Positions 9,980-41,695 of a DNA stretch of 46,199 nucleotides are shown here, piece after piece. A program made the translations under genes and the position numbers. Each line of letters begins with the position of its first letter. The stretch's first letter is position 1. The stretch lies in assembly GCA_905480165.1 (NCBI GenBank), contig CAJQPH010000148.1, positions 1 to 46,199 of the forward strand. Direction: 5' to 3'. The stretch is from an uncultured Flavobacteriales bacterium. GTDB lineage: Bacteria > Bacteroidota > Bacteroidia > Flavobacteriales_D > Crocinitomicaceae. The notes under the pieces were generated by a model, which was not told the origin of the DNA, did not search any database, and saw nothing but the letters and a program-made list of their open reading frames with translations.

Positions 9980-10858
9980 ATGAAATTATTTCTTCAATTT
10001 TCAATTACTTTGCTTTTGTTTCTTTCAATTTGCAATGATTCATTTTCCCAGAATTATAATTCAATATTTGGGATAGAAAACACGAATTGGAAAATGCCAT
10101 TTTGTAATTTGGATATAGCTGATGTCAAGGAGCAAATGTCAGAAGTCGAAACCGTTATTAACGGATTGAATTATAAAAAGGTCGGAACAGTAACTCCTAA
10201 TGGAGTATTTTACGATTTAAATGGCTTTGATACCAATGGGTTTACTCGTGAGGATGTATCTTCCGGAAAGGCATGGTTTATGAGCACGATGGAAACGATT
10301 TTGGGGATGGATACTCTAGAGTTTTTAGTCATGGATTTATCTCTCAATATAGGTGACACATTCATGATTCACAAACCGTGGAACGATGTGATTACCTCAA
10401 TCATTGATTCTGTATATTTTATTTCTGGGGTCAAACATGTTCAGACGGATTATCATTTTTGGGGGAGTAGTCAGCCGCTTACATTTATTGAGGGTATTGG
10501 TACCAATTATGGACTCTCTTACATGCACGATTCGTTTAACATGTGTCGTTGTTTGATATCAATTAATAAAGACTTTGATGAAGTCTATTCTAATAATAAT
10601 TGTTTTCCACCCATGGTAGGAAATGAACATTTAATGGAGGATTTTAAGACATCTATTTTCCCGAATCCTGTATCTACTTATCTTACTGTAGAATCAAACC
10701 TTAAAAGCGTTCAAGATTATGCGATATATTCTATTCTGGGTGAAAAGGTAATGAGCGGAAGAATCAGCTCAAATAGAATCGATATTTCAGGTCTTCCATC
10801 TAGTTCATATATTTTAAGAATAGGTGATCAGTCCTTTAAATTATTTGTCACCAAATAA
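9980..10858 (+). CDS. Secreted protein with T9SS type A sorting domain
   Basis: 292 aa from the ATG at 9980. An upstream in-frame non-ATG start (9950) would put ten residues ahead of a clean signal peptide (MKLFLQFSITLLLFLSICND, cleavage near SFSQ), so 9980 is preferred. Residues ~25-215 form an uncharacterised domain seen in many Bacteroidota secreted proteins (GVFYDLNGFD, FLVMDLSLNIGDTF, FIEGIGTNYGL). The last ~70 residues (SIFPNPVSTYLTVES..GLPSSSYILRIG) are the type A Por secretion/T9SS sorting domain, directing the protein across the outer membrane. A weak -7 box (TATTTTCG, 9953-9960) precedes it. Function unknown. Confidence 0.85.
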   Translation: MKLFLQFSITLLLFLSICNDSFSQNYNSIFGIENTNWKMPFCNLDIADVKEQMSEVETVINGLNYKKVGTVTPNGVFYDLNGFDTNGFTREDVSSGKAWFMSTMETILGMDTLEFLVMDLSLNIGDTFMIHKPWNDVITSIIDSVYFISGVKHVQTDYHFWGSSQPLTFIEGIGTNYGLSYMHDSFNMCRCLISINKDFDEVYSNNNCFPPMVGNEHLMEDFKTSIFPNPVSTYLTVESNLKSVQDYAIYSILGEKVMSGRISSNRIDISGLPSSSYILRIGDQSFKLFVTK

Positions 10859-10888
10859 CTTTCTGTTTTCAAATCTTAATTTTAGGTC

Positions 10889-10914
10889 AAAAAAAAAACG
10901 GGGCATTCACCCCG
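10889..10914 (-). terminator. Rho-independent terminator of the flavin reductase-DUF3127 operon
   Basis: CGGGG (10899-10903), loop CATTCA, CCCCG (10910-10914). On the minus strand the hairpin is followed by about ten T residues (the A run at 10889-10898). It lies just past the DUF3127 stop. The short T-rich stretch on the other side may also let it stop the convergent gene ending at 10858. Confidence 0.75.
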
Positions 10915-10939
10915 CTTAGTTTTGTAAATATGAATTCAT

Positions 10940-11332
10940 TTAAAAAGGCAAATCATCGCTTTTTTCACCATTTGAATCAGGTGTACTTGTTGCTGCCGTT
11001 TCTGGATTAAGATCCATTGCTCCAGCACCACCGGCAGGTATACCACTTCCTTGCCCCATTTTTTCTATTCTCCACGCATCAAGTGTGTTGAAGTATTTAA
11101 CAACACCATCAGGGCTCGTCCACTCTCTCCCTCTTAAGTTAAAAGAAACCTCTACTTCATCTTCAACAGAGTATCCATCTAACATTGCACATTTGTCTTG
11201 AACGGATTGAAACATCACATCTTGAGGGTACATTGATGAGGTATCGGTAACCACGAATTCTCGTTTTTTAAATTTTTCACTTATTTCTTGAATATCATTA
11301 ATGACTTTGATTTTTCCTTGGAACTTGTACAT
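10940..11332 (-). CDS. DUF3127 protein with SSB-like acidic C-terminal tip
   Basis: 130 aa. Residues ~1-95 match the DUF3127 family, predicted to be an OB-like beta barrel (MYKFQGKIKVI, KKREFVVTD, DEVEVSFNLRGREW, FNTLDAWRIEK). A low-complexity Gly/Ala/Pro/Thr linker follows and the protein ends in EKSDDLPF. This is the same layout as SSB: OB fold, disordered linker and an acidic DD-x-PF tip, through which SSB recruits repair and replication proteins. Function is unproven. It is the second gene of the operon, 11 bases behind the flavin reductase gene, and is followed by a strong terminator. Confidence 0.8.
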   Translation of the reverse strand: MYKFQGKIKVINDIQEISEKFKKREFVVTDTSSMYPQDVMFQSVQDKCAMLDGYSVEDEVEVSFNLRGREWTSPDGVVKYFNTLDAWRIEKMGQGSGIPAGGAGAMDLNPETAATSTPDSNGEKSDDLPF

Positions 11333-23224: not shown

Positions 23225-24013
23225 TTAGGGAGTTAAGGCAATCATGAAATTGTTTTTAACCTTCTCGGCCAAAACGATTTGACCACTTCCTGTGTGGGTA
23301 AGGAATTCGGTTTTTAAATCAATACTTGACTCGGAGTTTTTAAGAAATTCAGCCATATCTAAAGACCATTCTAATTTGTGTCCATCAGTCGTAGGGGTCC
23401 AATTAAGGTCATTAAAATTAAAATCCTCCATGAATTCATCGGTTCCAATGTGAAAACTAAAGTTGTGATTAAAGTTTTCTCCTGAAGACAGGGTATCAAC
23501 TTTTCCTTCGATACTAATAAAAATATACCCAGTATTCCATCCCCAATGCATTAATCCAGCATTACTGATATTTAAAGGGCTTTCATTTGGAAATAAAGAG
23601 GGGTCTGCATGATTGATACTAGAATCCAAACCTACTTTTCCAAAAATCGAATGAAATTTAGTGTAATCACCAGAAGTGCTAAAAAGGTGATTTGTACTGT
23701 TTCTATAGTCGTACAACGACGCTCCATTCAAGGTGTCTTGTCCATTCGTTAAATCTGACAAATAAAATTTCAAATCTGTAAATTTTACAGTATATCCTTC
23801 ATCTGTTTGATATGAAGAGTCCAGATAAAAGCTTTGAGTTCCATAGCTTGGATTAATTTTTATTTGTAATTCATCTAATGGATAAGTACAGCTACCATCA
23901 TCAGTATTCGCATTTTTGTTATAGTTATCCGCTTGCGGATCAGTACACCCTTCTTTCTTACATGAAAATGTAAAAATCGAGAAAATAAAAAGTAACGTTA
24001 TTAATCGAATCAT
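23225..24013 (-). CDS. MbnP-like lipoprotein
   Basis: 262 aa from the ATG at 24013 (a longer frame to 24064 lacks a proper signal sequence start). The signal peptide ends in TFSC (Cys18), indicating a lipoprotein. A short Cys-Asp-rich calcium-type segment follows (CTDPQADNYNKNANTDDGSC). The rest matches the MbnP family: FTDLKFYLSDL near the N-terminus, the hallmark MHWGWNTGYIFISIEGK and a C-terminal LEWSLDMAEF. MbnP proteins are periplasmic partners of MbnH dihaem enzymes; in methanotrophs MbnH converts a Trp of MbnP to kynurenine and MbnP binds copper. The paired MauG-like gene follows 2 bases downstream. Confidence 0.82.
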   Translation of the reverse strand: MIRLITLLFIFSIFTFSCKKEGCTDPQADNYNKNANTDDGSCTYPLDELQIKINPSYGTQSFYLDSSYQTDEGYTVKFTDLKFYLSDLTNGQDTLNGASLYDYRNSTNHLFSTSGDYTKFHSIFGKVGLDSSINHADPSLFPNESPLNISNAGLMHWGWNTGYIFISIEGKVDTLSSGENFNHNFSFHIGTDEFMEDFNFNDLNWTPTTDGHKLEWSLDMAEFLKNSESSIDLKTEFLTHTGSGQIVLAEKVKNNFMIALTP

Positions 24014-24019
24014 TCTTAA

Positions 24020-24027
24020 CAAAATTA
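24020..24027 (-). promoter_or_regulatory. -7 box of the mbnP-peroxidase operon
   Basis: CAAAATTA on the plus strand is TAATTTTG on the minus strand, an exact TAnnTTTG match that ends 6 bases before the ATG at 24013, suggesting a leaderless or nearly leaderless transcript. No -33 TTG found. Confidence 0.45.
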
Positions 24028-24080
24028 AGCTAAAATTCTCGTAAATTCCTATTTTTATGGGCATAGATTAGGACTTGAGT

Positions 24081-27000
24081 ATGCTGTCAACAATTAATAG
24101 AGAAAAGTATCCCTTATTTGTTTTAAGTGCTTCTGCAGGAAGTGGTAAAACGTATCAATTGGTATTACAATACTTATCCATAGTACTCAAAACAAAATCA
24201 CCAAATAACTTTAAAGGAATCGTAGCCATTACATTTACCAATAAGGCTTCCCTTGAAATGAAAACAAGGATTATTGATGCTTTGTTCAAGTTGGCTAAGT
24301 ATAAGTCTCCTAGCGAAGATAAAAATACAGCAGAAATAATTATTGAGTTAAAGAAACTGGTTAAGATTGATGAAAAGGAAATTGTAAAACGAAGTGGTAA
24401 CGTATTAAAATCGATCCTTCATGGATATGAAAATTTTAATGTGTCGACAATTGATAAATTTAATTTACGCTTAATCAAATCTTTTTCAAATGATTTAGAT
24501 TTACCAAATGAATTTGAGGTTTCCCTCAATGAAAATGAAGTTCTTGAAGAAGTTGTCGATTTACTCCTAAATTCTATTGGTGAAAATGGCAATAAGGATT
24601 TAACAAAGTTGGTTCAAGAATATGCCAAGTCAAATTTTAGAGATGGTAATCAATGGAATTTCAAACGACAGTTAATGTCATTTGCCTCTTCATTGAATAA
24701 GGAGAAAAACCAAGGTTTTATAAAGACGCTAATGGATATTTCCTTTGATAAAAAGGAATACAATAAGATTCAAAATAGGATTGACCAATTAAATGAGGTG
24801 TTTAAACCCAAAGTCGAGCAATTTTCAGGCGCGTTTCATGCCCAACGAATCAACGAAGTGGATCTTCCTTATAAGGGTCAGACATATAATGCCCTCGTAA
24901 AGATCGCCAAATTGACCAAATGTCCCATGCACAATAATGAGAAAGGGATTCTTTCAACAAGGCTAATAAATTATTGTGAAGAAGAAGGAGATACTCAGGC
25001 TTTAAATCGAAATTTAAAGGATTTACTTTTGGAAATCCATAAGTGCTACTTAGAAATTTCTTCTGAAATGACCTTACTTGTGAAATATAAAGCCAACTTC
25101 TTTAATATGGCATTATTGAGGTACGTTTTTGATTCATTGGCAGAGCACAAGGAGAAAAATAAAATAATTAGAATTTCAGAGTTTAATGCCCTGATAGGAA
25201 ATCTTGTTCAGAAAGAAGAAGCACCTTATATATATGAGAGATTTGGTGTAAAATACGAGCATTTTTTATTAGATGAATTTCAAGATACATCTCGCTTACA
25301 GTGGTTAAACCTGCTGCCTTTACTCAGAGAATCATTGAGTAATAAAAAAGAGAATTTAATCGTTGGAGATCCAAAACAATCTATTTATAGGTTTAATAAC
25401 GGTTTGGCTGAACAATTTGTCAGCTTACCTGAAATATATAATCCTGAAGAAGATGAGTATGTAGCTGAAGTGTCACGGTTTTTTAATCAAATGGGGATTA
25501 AGAAACCATTGGTTGATAATTATAGGTCATGTTCTGAAGTTGTTCTATTTAATGAGAAGATATTTACTGATTTCAGTAGTAAACTCGATAATAAATTCGA
25601 AAAGTTTTATGACTCCGTAGCTCAAAATCCAATTTCAAGCAAACAAGGTTTTGTTCGCGTGGTTTCTGAAAAGCAGAAGAGGGATCTTGATCAAATGGTC
25701 ACAGATATATCAGCAATCATAAAGAAATCAGAAACGGAAAATTTCGATCTTGGTGATATCTGTATTTTAACAGCTAAAAATGATTTGAGTGTTAAAATTG
25801 CTAATGAACTTACAAAAAAAGGTGTTTCAGTTTTTTCTCAGGAATCCTTGCTCATTTCGAAAAACATTCAAGTACGACTCCTTCTTTCTTATTTGAAATG
25901 GAGAATGCGTCCGACTATGGATACTGCCAAAAGACAGTTTGGGGAATTGTTTTTTAGGATGCAAGAAAATGTTGATGATCGTTATTTTGACTTCATTGTT
26001 GAGAAAGTAATCCCACCTGGTTATTCGATTAAGGTTTTTAACGACAAAGCATTTTTAGATGAGTTTTTTAAGGGGCGGGATTCGTTTTTTAAGCCTTTTG
26101 AAAATATTTATGAGCTCGCTCTTCAATTTCTGAACATGATGTCGTGGACAGATGTCAACAATCCATTTTTACATCAATTTTTGGATTTGGTCTTTCAGTT
26201 TCAAAATAATCGTCAGTCAGATCTTTCCAAGTTTCTAGAATATTACGAAGAAAATAAGTCATCATTTGCTTTAAAAATGCCGGATACTAAAAACGCAGTG
26301 CAGATTATGACAATTCATAAAGCGAAAGGTTTGGAATTTCCAATTGTTATAATTCCCGAGATGGACTTTGGCTTATCTTTAAGAAGTGATTCCAAATTCT
26401 TTGTGAAAACCGAGGATAAAATACTCTATACGAATTTATCAGAAACGAGTCTAATTGAGGACATCAACTCTAAGGCAGAGGATGAAAAGAATCTCATTCT
26501 TTTGGATAAGTTGAATATGCTTTATGTTGCATTTACAAGAGCTGAAAGGCGGTTGTATATCTTTAATCGATATGAGGGCAAGTCTAGTCTTGGAGCAATG
26601 TTTCACGATTGTTTGAAAAATGCTTTTGAACTTAATAAAGACGATAAAAGTCTGGAGTATATTTCAGGATCAGAGGTAAATAAATTTATGGGAACGGTAT
26701 CAAAGCCTAAAGGAGATACTGATTTTTATATTCCTGAAGATATTGAAATTGACAGCTCAATGGTGAAGCTCATTTTAGATGATGATTCCGATGAAGATTA
26801 TAGCACTCAGGAAGAAAGGTTATTTGGGATTTATTTCCATCAATTTATGGCTGAAATCAATGACTCCTCAGAAATGTCCGAGGTACTAAACCGTTATCAA
26901 TCGAACGATGCCATTGACAATTCAATCCTTCTAAAAATGAAAGATGCTGCTCAGTTGTTTTTTGAAATAGCGAATAACAAAGGGTTTTTTGAAGAATCTG

Positions 27001-27233
27001 TTAAAGTCTATAATGAACAGTCAATTTTAATAAATGGTGCCAACACCTTACGTCCAGATAAAATAATCGAAAGAAGAGACGATGTGATCGTAGTTGATTT
27101 TAAAACCGGCAGTGCCTCACCCAAGCATAATGAGCAAGTTTGGAACTATAAGTCCGTTCTGGAGGATGTTTTTGATAAACCCGTTAAATCTATTTTGTAT
27201 TATACTCAACAAAATCAATTAATCGAGATTTGA
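24081..27233 (+). CDS. addA: UvrD/RecB-type helicase-nuclease (AddA-like)
   Basis: 1050 aa from the ATG at 24081. Walker A SASAGSGKT lies at the N-terminus, followed by VAITFTNKASLEMKTRI (motif Ia), LLDEFQDTSRLQW (Walker B/DExx), VGDPKQSIYRF (motif III), IMTIHKAKGLEFPIVIIP and LYVAFTRAERRLYIF (motifs V-VI). The C-terminal PD-(D/E)XK nuclease site is seen at about residues 990-1010 (RPDKII, VVDFKTG). It processes double-strand DNA ends for recombination. Bacteroidota usually place addB next to it; no addB is in the window. The last 15 bases overlap the convergent GATase-like gene. Confidence 0.9.
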   Translation: MLSTINREKYPLFVLSASAGSGKTYQLVLQYLSIVLKTKSPNNFKGIVAITFTNKASLEMKTRIIDALFKLAKYKSPSEDKNTAEIIIELKKLVKIDEKEIVKRSGNVLKSILHGYENFNVSTIDKFNLRLIKSFSNDLDLPNEFEVSLNENEVLEEVVDLLLNSIGENGNKDLTKLVQEYAKSNFRDGNQWNFKRQLMSFASSLNKEKNQGFIKTLMDISFDKKEYNKIQNRIDQLNEVFKPKVEQFSGAFHAQRINEVDLPYKGQTYNALVKIAKLTKCPMHNNEKGILSTRLINYCEEEGDTQALNRNLKDLLLEIHKCYLEISSEMTLLVKYKANFFNMALLRYVFDSLAEHKEKNKIIRISEFNALIGNLVQKEEAPYIYERFGVKYEHFLLDEFQDTSRLQWLNLLPLLRESLSNKKENLIVGDPKQSIYRFNNGLAEQFVSLPEIYNPEEDEYVAEVSRFFNQMGIKKPLVDNYRSCSEVVLFNEKIFTDFSSKLDNKFEKFYDSVAQNPISSKQGFVRVVSEKQKRDLDQMVTDISAIIKKSETENFDLGDICILTAKNDLSVKIANELTKKGVSVFSQESLLISKNIQVRLLLSYLKWRMRPTMDTAKRQFGELFFRMQENVDDRYFDFIVEKVIPPGYSIKVFNDKAFLDEFFKGRDSFFKPFENIYELALQFLNMMSWTDVNNPFLHQFLDLVFQFQNNRQSDLSKFLEYYEENKSSFALKMPDTKNAVQIMTIHKAKGLEFPIVIIPEMDFGLSLRSDSKFFVKTEDKILYTNLSETSLIEDINSKAEDEKNLILLDKLNMLYVAFTRAERRLYIFNRYEGKSSLGAMFHDCLKNAFELNKDDKSLEYISGSEVNKFMGTVSKPKGDTDFYIPEDIEIDSSMVKLILDDDSDEDYSTQEERLFGIYFHQFMAEINDSSEMSEVLNRYQSNDAIDNSILLKMKDAAQLFFEIANNKGFFEESVKVYNEQSILINGANTLRPDKIIERRDDVIVVDFKTGSASPKHNEQVWNYKSVLEDVFDKPVKSILYYTQQNQLIEI

Positions 27234-28611: not shown

Positions 28612-29103
28612 CTAAAAAGATGCTTTTTTTGATGCTTTTTTATGGAAATCATAGAATATATTCCATGTTTCTTCTTTCGAAATCTGACAACCTTGAGTAA
28701 CTAATTTGTGGATTTCATCAGTAACTTTTTCACCTAATTGCTTGGTTGAGGAATACAATTCCCAGGAATTATGATGGTTATTTAATAGTTCTGGAATCAA
28801 ATTTTCATTTTTAAAAGCGAAAGTTGGTTCAGTACTTTTTATTAATATGAGGTTCATGTTATCCTTATTTATTCTAAAAATAGAATAGACTTTGTCGGAA
28901 ACATAGCTTAAATATTTAATTTTTGAGTAGACTTTTGCTAAGACGGTATCACTAAAAATTTCTACAATTTGAATGGCTTTTTCCTTATTATCGAGATTCA
29001 TTTTCCTCCACGATTCATCATCTATCCCTTGAACAACGAGGAATTGAGTAAAATCTTCTGATAATACGTTCAATTCTTCTTCTGTCAACATGCGGTACCT
29101 CAT
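28612..29103 (-). CDS. DUF6495-like conserved Bacteroidota protein
   Basis: 163 aa from the ATG at 29103 (MRYRMLTEEELNVLSEDFTQ; a start two codons upstream is possible). The N-terminal MRYRxLTxEEL, the middle EIFSDTVLAKVYSKIKYLSY and the C-terminal helices follow the DUF6495 family, whose members sit beside gldH in many flavobacteria. No known motif is present. Its ATG overlaps the gldH stop by one base (TAATG), so translation is coupled. Possibly linked with gliding or T9SS function by context only. Confidence 0.7.
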   Translation of the reverse strand: MRYRMLTEEELNVLSEDFTQFLVVQGIDDESWRKMNLDNKEKAIQIVEIFSDTVLAKVYSKIKYLSYVSDKVYSIFRINKDNMNLILIKSTEPTFAFKNENLIPELLNNHHNSWELYSSTKQLGEKVTDEIHKLVTQGCQISKEETWNIFYDFHKKASKKASF

Positions 29104-29603
29104 TACCAAATAGTAGGTTTGACTTCAATCGTCAAATCAGACAGCTCATCAAGCTGACCAATAGTCACGGCTTGCTCTAGCTGAAAGCTGTATGAGCCTT
29201 TACAGAATCTTCGTTGTCTAAATTTAAGCTTATGATCAATGTAAGTACCGGATTTGGAACCGATCCATTCTCCATTGGGTTTGGCCATTTTGATCTCAAC
29301 AGGAGTTTTTCCTAAAATTGATTTGGATTTGGAAAGCTTTTTACAATCGGGTCCCTTGGTTGTAATGTAAAGCCAGATATTGTTGTAGGCATAATCAGTG
29401 GTGCTTCTTAGGGTAAATATCACATCATAGGTTGTTGTATCCCCAGGAAAGTCTACTTTAAATATTGGTTTTTCATTTTGCTTCCAAGTGTTGTTACTAA
29501 ACTTATGGGTGTGCATGTATAGGGTATCATCCGTACAGGATTGCAAAGCGAAAAGGATAGCCAATAAAGAGATAAAAAAAATATTTTGTTTTTTTTTGCG
29601 CAT
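29103..29603 (-). CDS. gldH: Gliding motility lipoprotein GldH
   Basis: 166 aa. The N-terminal basic region and hydrophobic core end in LQSCTDDTLY (lipobox Cys22). The remaining sequence (NTWKQNEKPIFKVDFPGDTT, YNNIWLYITTKGP, GEWIGSKSGTYIDHKLKFRQ) matches GldH. GldH is an outer-envelope lipoprotein needed for gliding and chitin use in Flavobacterium. It directly follows ricT (one base gap) and overlaps the DUF6495 start, the usual flavobacterial order. Whether this organism glides is not shown; gldH also occurs in non-gliding strains. Confidence 0.88.
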   Translation of the reverse strand: MRKKKQNIFFISLLAILFALQSCTDDTLYMHTHKFSNNTWKQNEKPIFKVDFPGDTTTYDVIFTLRSTTDYAYNNIWLYITTKGPDCKKLSKSKSILGKTPVEIKMAKPNGEWIGSKSGTYIDHKLKFRQRRFCKGSYSFQLEQAVTIGQLDELSDLTIEVKPTIW

Positions 29604-30787: not shown

Positions 30788-31906
30788 TTATGCTTTATGA
30801 AGGAATCTCATAGATTGAAAACACATCAGTGTAAATAGAATTTTGGGATTTGCATTTCGATCGAGTTGATAATAGGCATCGTCTATGGATTTCATGAATT
30901 CTCTAATATTATTTCCATTAATAAAAGGTGAAAATTTCTTTAAAAAAGAAAGTTCACTTTCAGAGAGCTTTACCTTTTCAGCGTTTCCATAATTTTTAAT
31001 GATACATTGGCGAAGCATATGAGAACAGTATATTAGAAACATTTTTTGGCGCTCTTTTCCTACTTGTGCCATGCCTTCTGCCCAATTCATCATTTCTAAC
31101 ACGTTTTTTTTGTAGCTCGATCTCATTAGGCCAATAAAATTATCGCAGAGAGATCCTTCTTGCTCGTCTAAATTAATGAGCTCTTCAGCTTTGATTATAT
31201 TTCCTTCGGAAAATGAGGCGATAGACTCTGATTGCTTCTGGTCGAGATGATATTTCGTTTTTAAATGCAATTTAAGAGAAGCATTATCTACTCTATTTAA
31301 ATGAAGCATTTGACAACGGGATTTTATTGTGTCGAGTAAGTTTTCACTGTCTTGACTTACCAAAATAAAGATGGTTTTACTTGTTGGCTCCTCTTAAATC
31401 TTGAGAATTTTATTTGAACATTGCGAATTCATTTGTTCAGCCATCCAAATAATCGTGATCTTATATCCACCTTCGTAAGATTTTAGACTTAGTTTTCTTT
31501 GAATCTCAGCACTTTCAAAAACAGAAATAATGGGCTGACGTCCTTTGATATCTATAGCTTGCGTCCAGTCCAACAAGGTGAAGTACGAGTTTTTTTTTAT
31601 TTGTTCTCTCCAGTGAGAAAGAAAAGGATTTGAAGTATTACTTTCAATTTGTACAGTTGGAAAGCTAAAGTGTAGATCGGGATGCTGCAATTCATTAATT
31701 TTCAAACAAGATGAGCAGGTGCCACAGCTGTCGTTCTCTTTTTTTTCCAAACAAAGTACATATTGAGCATAAGCAATACTTAAACCCAAGGTTCCGTATC
31801 CTAAATCACCGGAAAACAGTTGAGCGTGGCTGACTTTGTTTTTTTGAATTCCGTGAATCAGCTTTTCCTTAATGTTCTGGTGACCAATAACGTCTTTGAA
31901 TTGCAT
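30788..31906 (-). pseudogene. holB: DNA polymerase III subunit delta' interrupted by an in-frame TAA
   Basis: One reading frame of 373 codons, broken only by TAA at codon 171 (31396-31394). The upstream piece (31394-31906) has the delta' N-terminus VIGHQNIKEKL, a degenerate P-loop, the zinc-binding Cys set (CLEKKENDSCGTCSSC) and IIWMAEQMNSQCSNKILKI. The frame continues EEPTSKTIFIL after the stop, then VSQDSENLLDTIKSRCQ (SRC motif) and the collar-domain part (ORF from TTG, 30788-31363). The family has LEEP here, so the stop is a Leu codon (TTA) changed by one base. The first piece lacks the sensor/lid and collar, so a working clamp-loader subunit is not made unless the stop is read through or is an error. 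Confidence 0.85.
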
Positions 31907-40374: not shown

Positions 40375-41695
40375 TGGCCCAATTTAATCTGTCGTTTTGT
40401 GAAAATTGCCAGGGTGCACCATTGTTTTCTATATTGGTAAGCATTCCTGTTAACTCGTTAGGTATCTTCGATTCCTCCATTACAAGAAAGCGTCTTAAGT
40501 CAATGATAATGGATAAAGGGTCTATATTCACAGGACATTCATCCACGCAGGCGTTACACGATGTACAAGCCCATAATTCTTCTTGGGTTATATAATCTCC
40601 CAATAATGATTTCCCATCATCATATTCTTTGCCATTTTTTCTTTTTCCTTCGCCAAATTCGACCAGACGGTCACGAGTATCCATCATTATTTTTCTAGGG
40701 GAAAGAAGTTTACCTGTGATATTTGCCGGGCAGGAAGAAGTACAACGCCCACATTCGGTGCAGGTGTAAGCGTCCATTAAGTTCTTCCAGGTTAAATCAT
40801 TCACGTCTTTTGCTCCAAACCGAGACGGTGGTGCTGCGTTAGGATCTACCGCATAAGGATCTGCGCTGGGATCGAGCATAAGTTTTACCTCGTTGGTAAC
40901 ACTCTCCATGTTCTCGAACTTCCCTTTCTTTTCCAAGTTTGAATAATAAGTGTTTGGAAAAGCCAAAAGAATGTGAAAGTGTTTGGAATAAGGCAGATAA
41001 TTTAAAAATCCGATGACCATAAATAAATGCCCCCACCATCCCATGCGTTCAAGCAAGAAAAGAGACGAGTTGCTCATTGAATCGAAGAATAAAGGGCCGA
41101 TAATTGAGGAGATACTAAAACCAAATGATCCTTGTATATCAGAGGCATGGGAAACACCTCTATTAAACAATACTTCGTCAGTACCATTCATTGTGAAAAT
41201 ACAGACCAGTAAAATGAGTTCAAAAATTAAAATAAGATTGGCATCTTTAGTTGGCCAGCCAATCATCTCTTTCATTTTTAGTCGGGGCAGTTTGAGTAAA
41301 TTTCTTCTTGCTAAAAAAATAATGGTCGCGAAGAATGCTGCAACGGATAAGATTTCAATGAAGCTAATTGTGAACACATAAAACGAACCCAAAGATTCAG
41401 AAAAAACCCGATGGTCTCCGCTAAGACCATCCGCAAAGATTTCAATAAGCTCTATTTGAGTAATTACAAAAGCAACATAAAGACATAAATGTAATAACGC
41501 AGGTATTGGACGGGAAAACATTTTTTTTTGACCAAAGGCAACAAGGAGCATAGTTTTTAACCGTTCTCCTTTTTTATCATTTCGATTTAAATCGCGTCCA
41601 AGCCTAATGTTGTAACGTATTTTCCAGAGATTATAGGAAAAAAAACCAAGTCCACAAATACTTAGAAGTAAAAATAAAATGAGTTGAATATTCAT
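40364..41695 (-). CDS. Membrane-bound Fe-S oxidoreductase subunit
   Basis: 443 aa. The first ~240 residues hold about five transmembrane segments (ILFLLLSICGLGFFSYNLW, LHLCLYVAFVITQIELIEIF, FVIT..ILSVAAFFATIIFL, LILIFELILLVCIFTM), with His residues that could ligate haem b, as in HdrE/NarI-like proteins. Two ferredoxin-type [4Fe-4S] motifs follow: CTECGRCTSSCP and CTSCNACVDECP. This fusion of a membrane anchor with a dicluster ferredoxin resembles HdrDE/DsrMK-type quinone-linked complexes. The catalytic CCG half is the separate gene at 39148-39936. It sits 7 bases downstream of the MlaD gene. Confidence 0.85.
   Translation of the reverse strand: MNIQLILFLLLSICGLGFFSYNLWKIRYNIRLGRDLNRNDKKGERLKTMLLVAFGQKKMFSRPIPALLHLCLYVAFVITQIELIEIFADGLSGDHRVFSESLGSFYVFTISFIEILSVAAFFATIIFLARRNLLKLPRLKMKEMIGWPTKDANLILIFELILLVCIFTMNGTDEVLFNRGVSHASDIQGSFGFSISSIIGPLFFDSMSNSSLFLLERMGWWGHLFMVIGFLNYLPYSKHFHILLAFPNTYYSNLEKKGKFENMESVTNEVKLMLDPSADPYAVDPNAAPPSRFGAKDVNDLTWKNLMDAYTCTECGRCTSSCPANITGKLLSPRKIMMDTRDRLVEFGEGKRKNGKEYDDGKSLLGDYITQEELWACTSCNACVDECPVNIDPLSIIIDLRRFLVMEESKIPNELTGMLTNIENNGAPWQFSQNDRLNWANEE

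Follow-up and report, generated by a model that had tools for sequence, protein, structure and literature searches.

The gene holB, which codes for the delta' subunit of DNA polymerase III, lies on the minus strand of the window, a term used here for the whole stretch of 46,199 nucleotides that was analyzed. Contig C148, which the window covers in its entirety, belongs to a draft Flavobacteriales genome that amounts to 2.07 Mb in 240 contigs and is 81% complete. When positions 30788-31906 are translated, they yield one delta' frame of 372 codons closed by a natural TAA. The frame is interrupted at codon 171 (31396-31394), where the translation runs ...SNKILKI-stop-EEPTSKTIFIL...; this TAA is the sole internal stop, and the frame carries no frameshift. 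In the neighborhood formed by holB, ricT, and gldH, a DUF6495 gene (28612-29109) is situated downstream from gldH. The features relevant to the interruption are given below.

30788..31906, minus strand: holB frame, DNA polymerase III subunit delta'; 372 codons plus the natural stop, with one interruption; matches delta' profiles and is 89.5% identical in protein sequence, over its full length, to the intact sister gene.
31394..31396, minus strand: in-frame TAA at codon 171, replacing the hydrophobic residue of the LEEP motif; no stop in the other holB copies of the genus.
31397..31906, minus strand: N-terminal piece of 170 amino acids with the degenerate P-loop region, cysteine-rich zinc module, and Walker-B region; matches TIGR00678 3-119 and PF13177 2-124.
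30791..31393, minus strand: C-terminal piece of 201 stop-free codons with the sensor-1 strand, the SRC arginine finger (R197), and the lid and collar domains; profile match, with 40 of 40 genus-invariant residues kept.
31361..31363, minus strand: TTG at codon 182, the proposed internal start; an unchanged leucine codon in the intact sister.
31384..31384, minus strand: first base of codon 175, where threonine replaces the near-invariant proline after LEEP; 11 bases from the second base of the stop.

The labels given to the N-terminal piece (degenerate P-loop, cysteine-rich zinc module, and Walker-B region) come from general knowledge of delta' proteins, and we take them to apply here. Assignment to the delta' family is supported by profile matches of both halves to TIGR00678 and PF13177, and the two pieces cover adjoining stretches (3-119 and 121-187) of TIGR00678. 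Read across the stop, holB scores 163 bits against the curated TIGR00678 cut-off of 180.6, a threshold that just six of 14 control genomes pass. As had been claimed in the original prediction, a single in-frame TAA occupies the hydrophobic position of the LEEP motif, and both the translation and the alignment of relatives bear this out. Among 29 relatives, this position of the L-L-K-x-[L/I]-E-E-P motif is held by leucine in 21, by isoleucine in seven, and by methionine in one.

Representatives of holB were matched in 83 of the 86 genomes available for the genus, including the source genome, and the three genomes that gave no match are incomplete drafts. A stop inside the match is found in the source genome and in none of the 82 others, whose copies have the uninterrupted reading frame that is broken here. 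Sampling more widely, across the order, likewise revealed no stop in the other holB copies. The nearest named relatives are metagenome-assembled Flavobacteriales and Crocinitomicaceae, and the closest is isolate SI073_bin95 (hereafter the sister), with 93.4% DNA identity over 5.8 kb around holB. Its holB is intact, exists as a single copy, and sits in the same gene neighborhood. Comparison with sister genomes had been proposed as a check on the stop, and it is informative: At the stop site the sister carries a leucine codon that differs from TAA by one base, and the stop is likewise absent from the other genus copies. The interruption is thus a lone stop, private to one genome; apart from it, the gene is intact and both of its halves are conserved.

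Purifying selection is evident on either side of the stop. Relative to the sister, dN/dS is 0.139 before the stop and 0.122 after it, and all of the 40 genus-invariant residues that lie past the stop are retained. Relaxed selection or additional lesions beyond the stop, as would be expected of a pseudogene, were not found, given the nearly equal ratios and the lack of any frameshift. Because selection is equal in the two halves and the invariant residues are kept, selection must have maintained full-length delta' up to the very recent past, or maintains it still. When amino acid changes were polarized with an outgroup, the C-terminal half showed 10 on the window branch versus four on the sister branch, and the N-terminal half showed six versus four. 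Judging from these alignments, the excess in the C-terminal half does not amount to a clear acceleration, and many of the changes fall in a divergent patch.

Several short patches of this type, sharply bounded, distinguish the window from the sister (31194-31313, 31614-31673, and 31794-31853, and also 28737-28796, 10600-10999, and 41400-41599). Divergence within such patches (e.g., 31194-31313 and 10600-10999) is ~15%-40%, compared to a mean of 5.6%, and nearly no indels are present. Their appearance suggests brief tracts of recombination, or strains mixed in one of the assemblies. Elsewhere in the window, a gene for a UvrD-like helicase (24075-27233) finds sister matches that are only 65%-68% identical, versus ~95% for its flanks, and the ortholog may be missing from the sister draft or may have been replaced.

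The original prediction also held that the gene has no other lesions. This is correct for stops and frameshifts, and requires a small qualification in that residue 175 is threonine here and proline in 36 of the other ~38 homologs. Besides the stop, this is the only departure from a column conserved at 92% or more. Between 31380 and 31395, three nonsynonymous differences from the sister are crowded into 16 bases: the stop, residue 175 (threonine versus proline in the sister), and residue 176 (serine versus asparagine). This cluster could mean that the consensus is unreliable over a short stretch, or that constraint has begun to relax in the wake of a real stop.

To gauge how often lone stops occur in this genome, the window was considered together with other parts of the assembly. 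Approximately 35 kb of the window can be aligned to the sister, and the ~40 genes it holds are free of frameshifts and of any further premature stop. The gene at 23225-24064 was also flagged for a "stop" at its end; this is trivial, as the frame merely ends two residues before that of the sister at the C terminus. A length-based scan of 218 kb, comprising the window and 20 sampled stretches of the source genome, returned 14 pairs of in-frame neighbors split by one stop. On inspection, all except holB look like ordinary gene borders, such that no further lone mid-gene stop was encountered in the 218 kb. Errors are evidently rare in this assembly, yet one wrong base in 2 Mb would be unsurprising, and the holB stop was picked precisely because it is conspicuous.

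Four explanations had been offered at the outset, namely sequencing or assembly error, a very recent mutation, readthrough, and two polypeptides working together. The first two are supported jointly, and the latter two are disfavored because the stop is private, the sister and genus copies are intact, selection is equal on the two halves, and no recoding signal was detected. If the stop were real but read through or suppressed, enough full-length delta' could still be made, and both the conserved coding sequence past the stop and the interpretation of comparable cases as readthrough (PMC7918605) fit such a scheme. Nevertheless, we consider it quite unlikely. A stop that is not conserved in relatives does not constitute a programmed readthrough site. 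Nor is TAA reassigned, because it is the commonest ordinary stop in the window (23 of 42 frames of at least 150 codons), and the other scanned genes end normally. No tRNA with a stop anticodon is present among the ~20 tRNA genes found in this 81% complete genome, the RNA fold at the stop is ordinary (z = -1.06), and no RNA families were found in the window. Viral contigs searched for this stretch, with the base at the stop site left free, yielded no match.

A related scheme, in which two separately translated pieces reassemble and the second is reinitiated near TTG 31363, has in its favor that the second piece is conserved and that an in-frame TTG does exist 10 codons past the stop. This codon (182) was not newly gained, however, as it is an unchanged leucine codon of the intact sister. 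Searches near the stop revealed no promoter or terminator above shuffled controls, with the promoter scan giving fewer sites than shuffled sequence, and a stop-split holB occurs in no relative examined. The alignment with E. coli delta' (1A5T) puts the stop at position 132 of that protein and R197 at residue 158. The break would therefore fall inside the AAA+ core, 26 residues ahead of the SRC arginine finger and not at a domain border. Such a position is ill suited to a functional split, and working halves seem highly improbable. Equally improbable is a true pseudogene whose function has moved to another subunit or to a second holB. The missing part of the genome leaves room for such a copy, but the gene shows purifying selection in both halves rather than decay, and the sister has just one holB at the same location. 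The original prediction had named a second holB elsewhere in the genome as the mark of a true pseudogene, and a search of the 240 contigs (81% complete) gave a negative answer, the sole other match being a dnaX-like gene on contig C35. This is a different gene despite the match, and it was rejected as a second copy. Even taken together, readthrough, split, and replaced-gene schemes are unlikely.

A real and very recent nonsense mutation ranks second among the explanations, and we regard it as possible but less probable than an error. The allele would be at low frequency, or carried by cells that, at the time of sampling, were dying or had been compensated in part, in a gene that has not yet decayed. 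A single substitution with no further lesions and equal dN/dS in both halves is what such an event would leave, and the somewhat larger number of C-terminal changes on the window branch points in the same direction, despite its lack of clear significance and the concentration of many changes in a divergent patch. Lone in-frame stops are also widespread in bacterial genes and mostly short-lived (PMC7918605). In opposition to this reading, a fixed null allele should kill the cell, given that delta' is expected to be essential and that the search turned up no further copy, and nothing positive separates mutation from error.

We favor the explanation that the TAA arose through a mistake in consensus or assembly, or else is a minority variant taken into the contig, and assign this a probability of roughly 0.6. 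Specifically, we infer that the base itself is wrong at the stop site. The source is a fragmented draft, and the holB copies of the sister and of other close relatives in the genus were found without a stop. Both halves remain constrained, and no other holB turned up that could stand in for this one. Delta' is essential in the bacteria tested. In E. coli and B. subtilis alike, it forms part of the clamp loader (PMC13220808). Furthermore, the second anomalous base, which creates the sole broken near-invariant residue, is only 11 bases away, as a short bad patch of consensus would give. Set against an artifact are the cleanness of the remaining contig and scanned sequence, which indicates that errors are rare, and the fact that a single true mutation would look alike. 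The nearby proline-to-threonine change could also mark early relaxed constraint after a real stop. Comparison of sequences does not separate error from recent mutation.

In relation to known delta' proteins (TIGR00678, PF13177; 1A5T), the holB product is alike in its full-length architecture across the stop, its LEEP and SRC motifs, its cysteine-rich zinc module, and its length of 372 amino acids, which matches that of its congeners. It is unlike them in the TAA at codon 171 and the threonine in place of proline at residue 175. Delta' proteins shorter than usual are a known kind (NF006296/PRK08485, a model of 206 positions), whereas this gene is interrupted within the AAA+ core and has a C-terminal half that is both present and conserved. 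A survey of bacterial genes found in-frame stops to be widespread, with most persisting no longer than polymorphisms do within populations (Belinky et al. 2021; PMC7918605). The holB case resembles the isolated stops in selected genes of that study in that one stop stands alone, the dN/dS of the surrounding sequence is well below 1, and lesions have not accumulated. In contrast, the survey kept stops common to orthologs of at least two species, which removes artifacts, and the private holB stop would be filtered out. A literature search on stops in metagenome-assembled genomes found nothing direct.

Should the TAA be an error or a minority variant, then a wrong consensus base, or a variant picked up by the assembler, would have yielded the stop in a draft metagenome assembly, and the living population would most likely make ordinary full-length delta' from holB. 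Most likely, the holB stop represents no new mechanism and is probably no real feature. The case serves as a caution that, when an essential gene in a draft metagenome-assembled genome shows a lone in-frame stop, sister genomes and reads should be consulted before recoding or a pseudogene is called. It is very unlikely that the stop is real and fixed in the species, with the cell living on trace amounts of readthrough delta' or on a delta' of two pieces broken inside the AAA+ core. If it were real and fixed, this bacterium would be able to replicate with very little delta' or with a split one.
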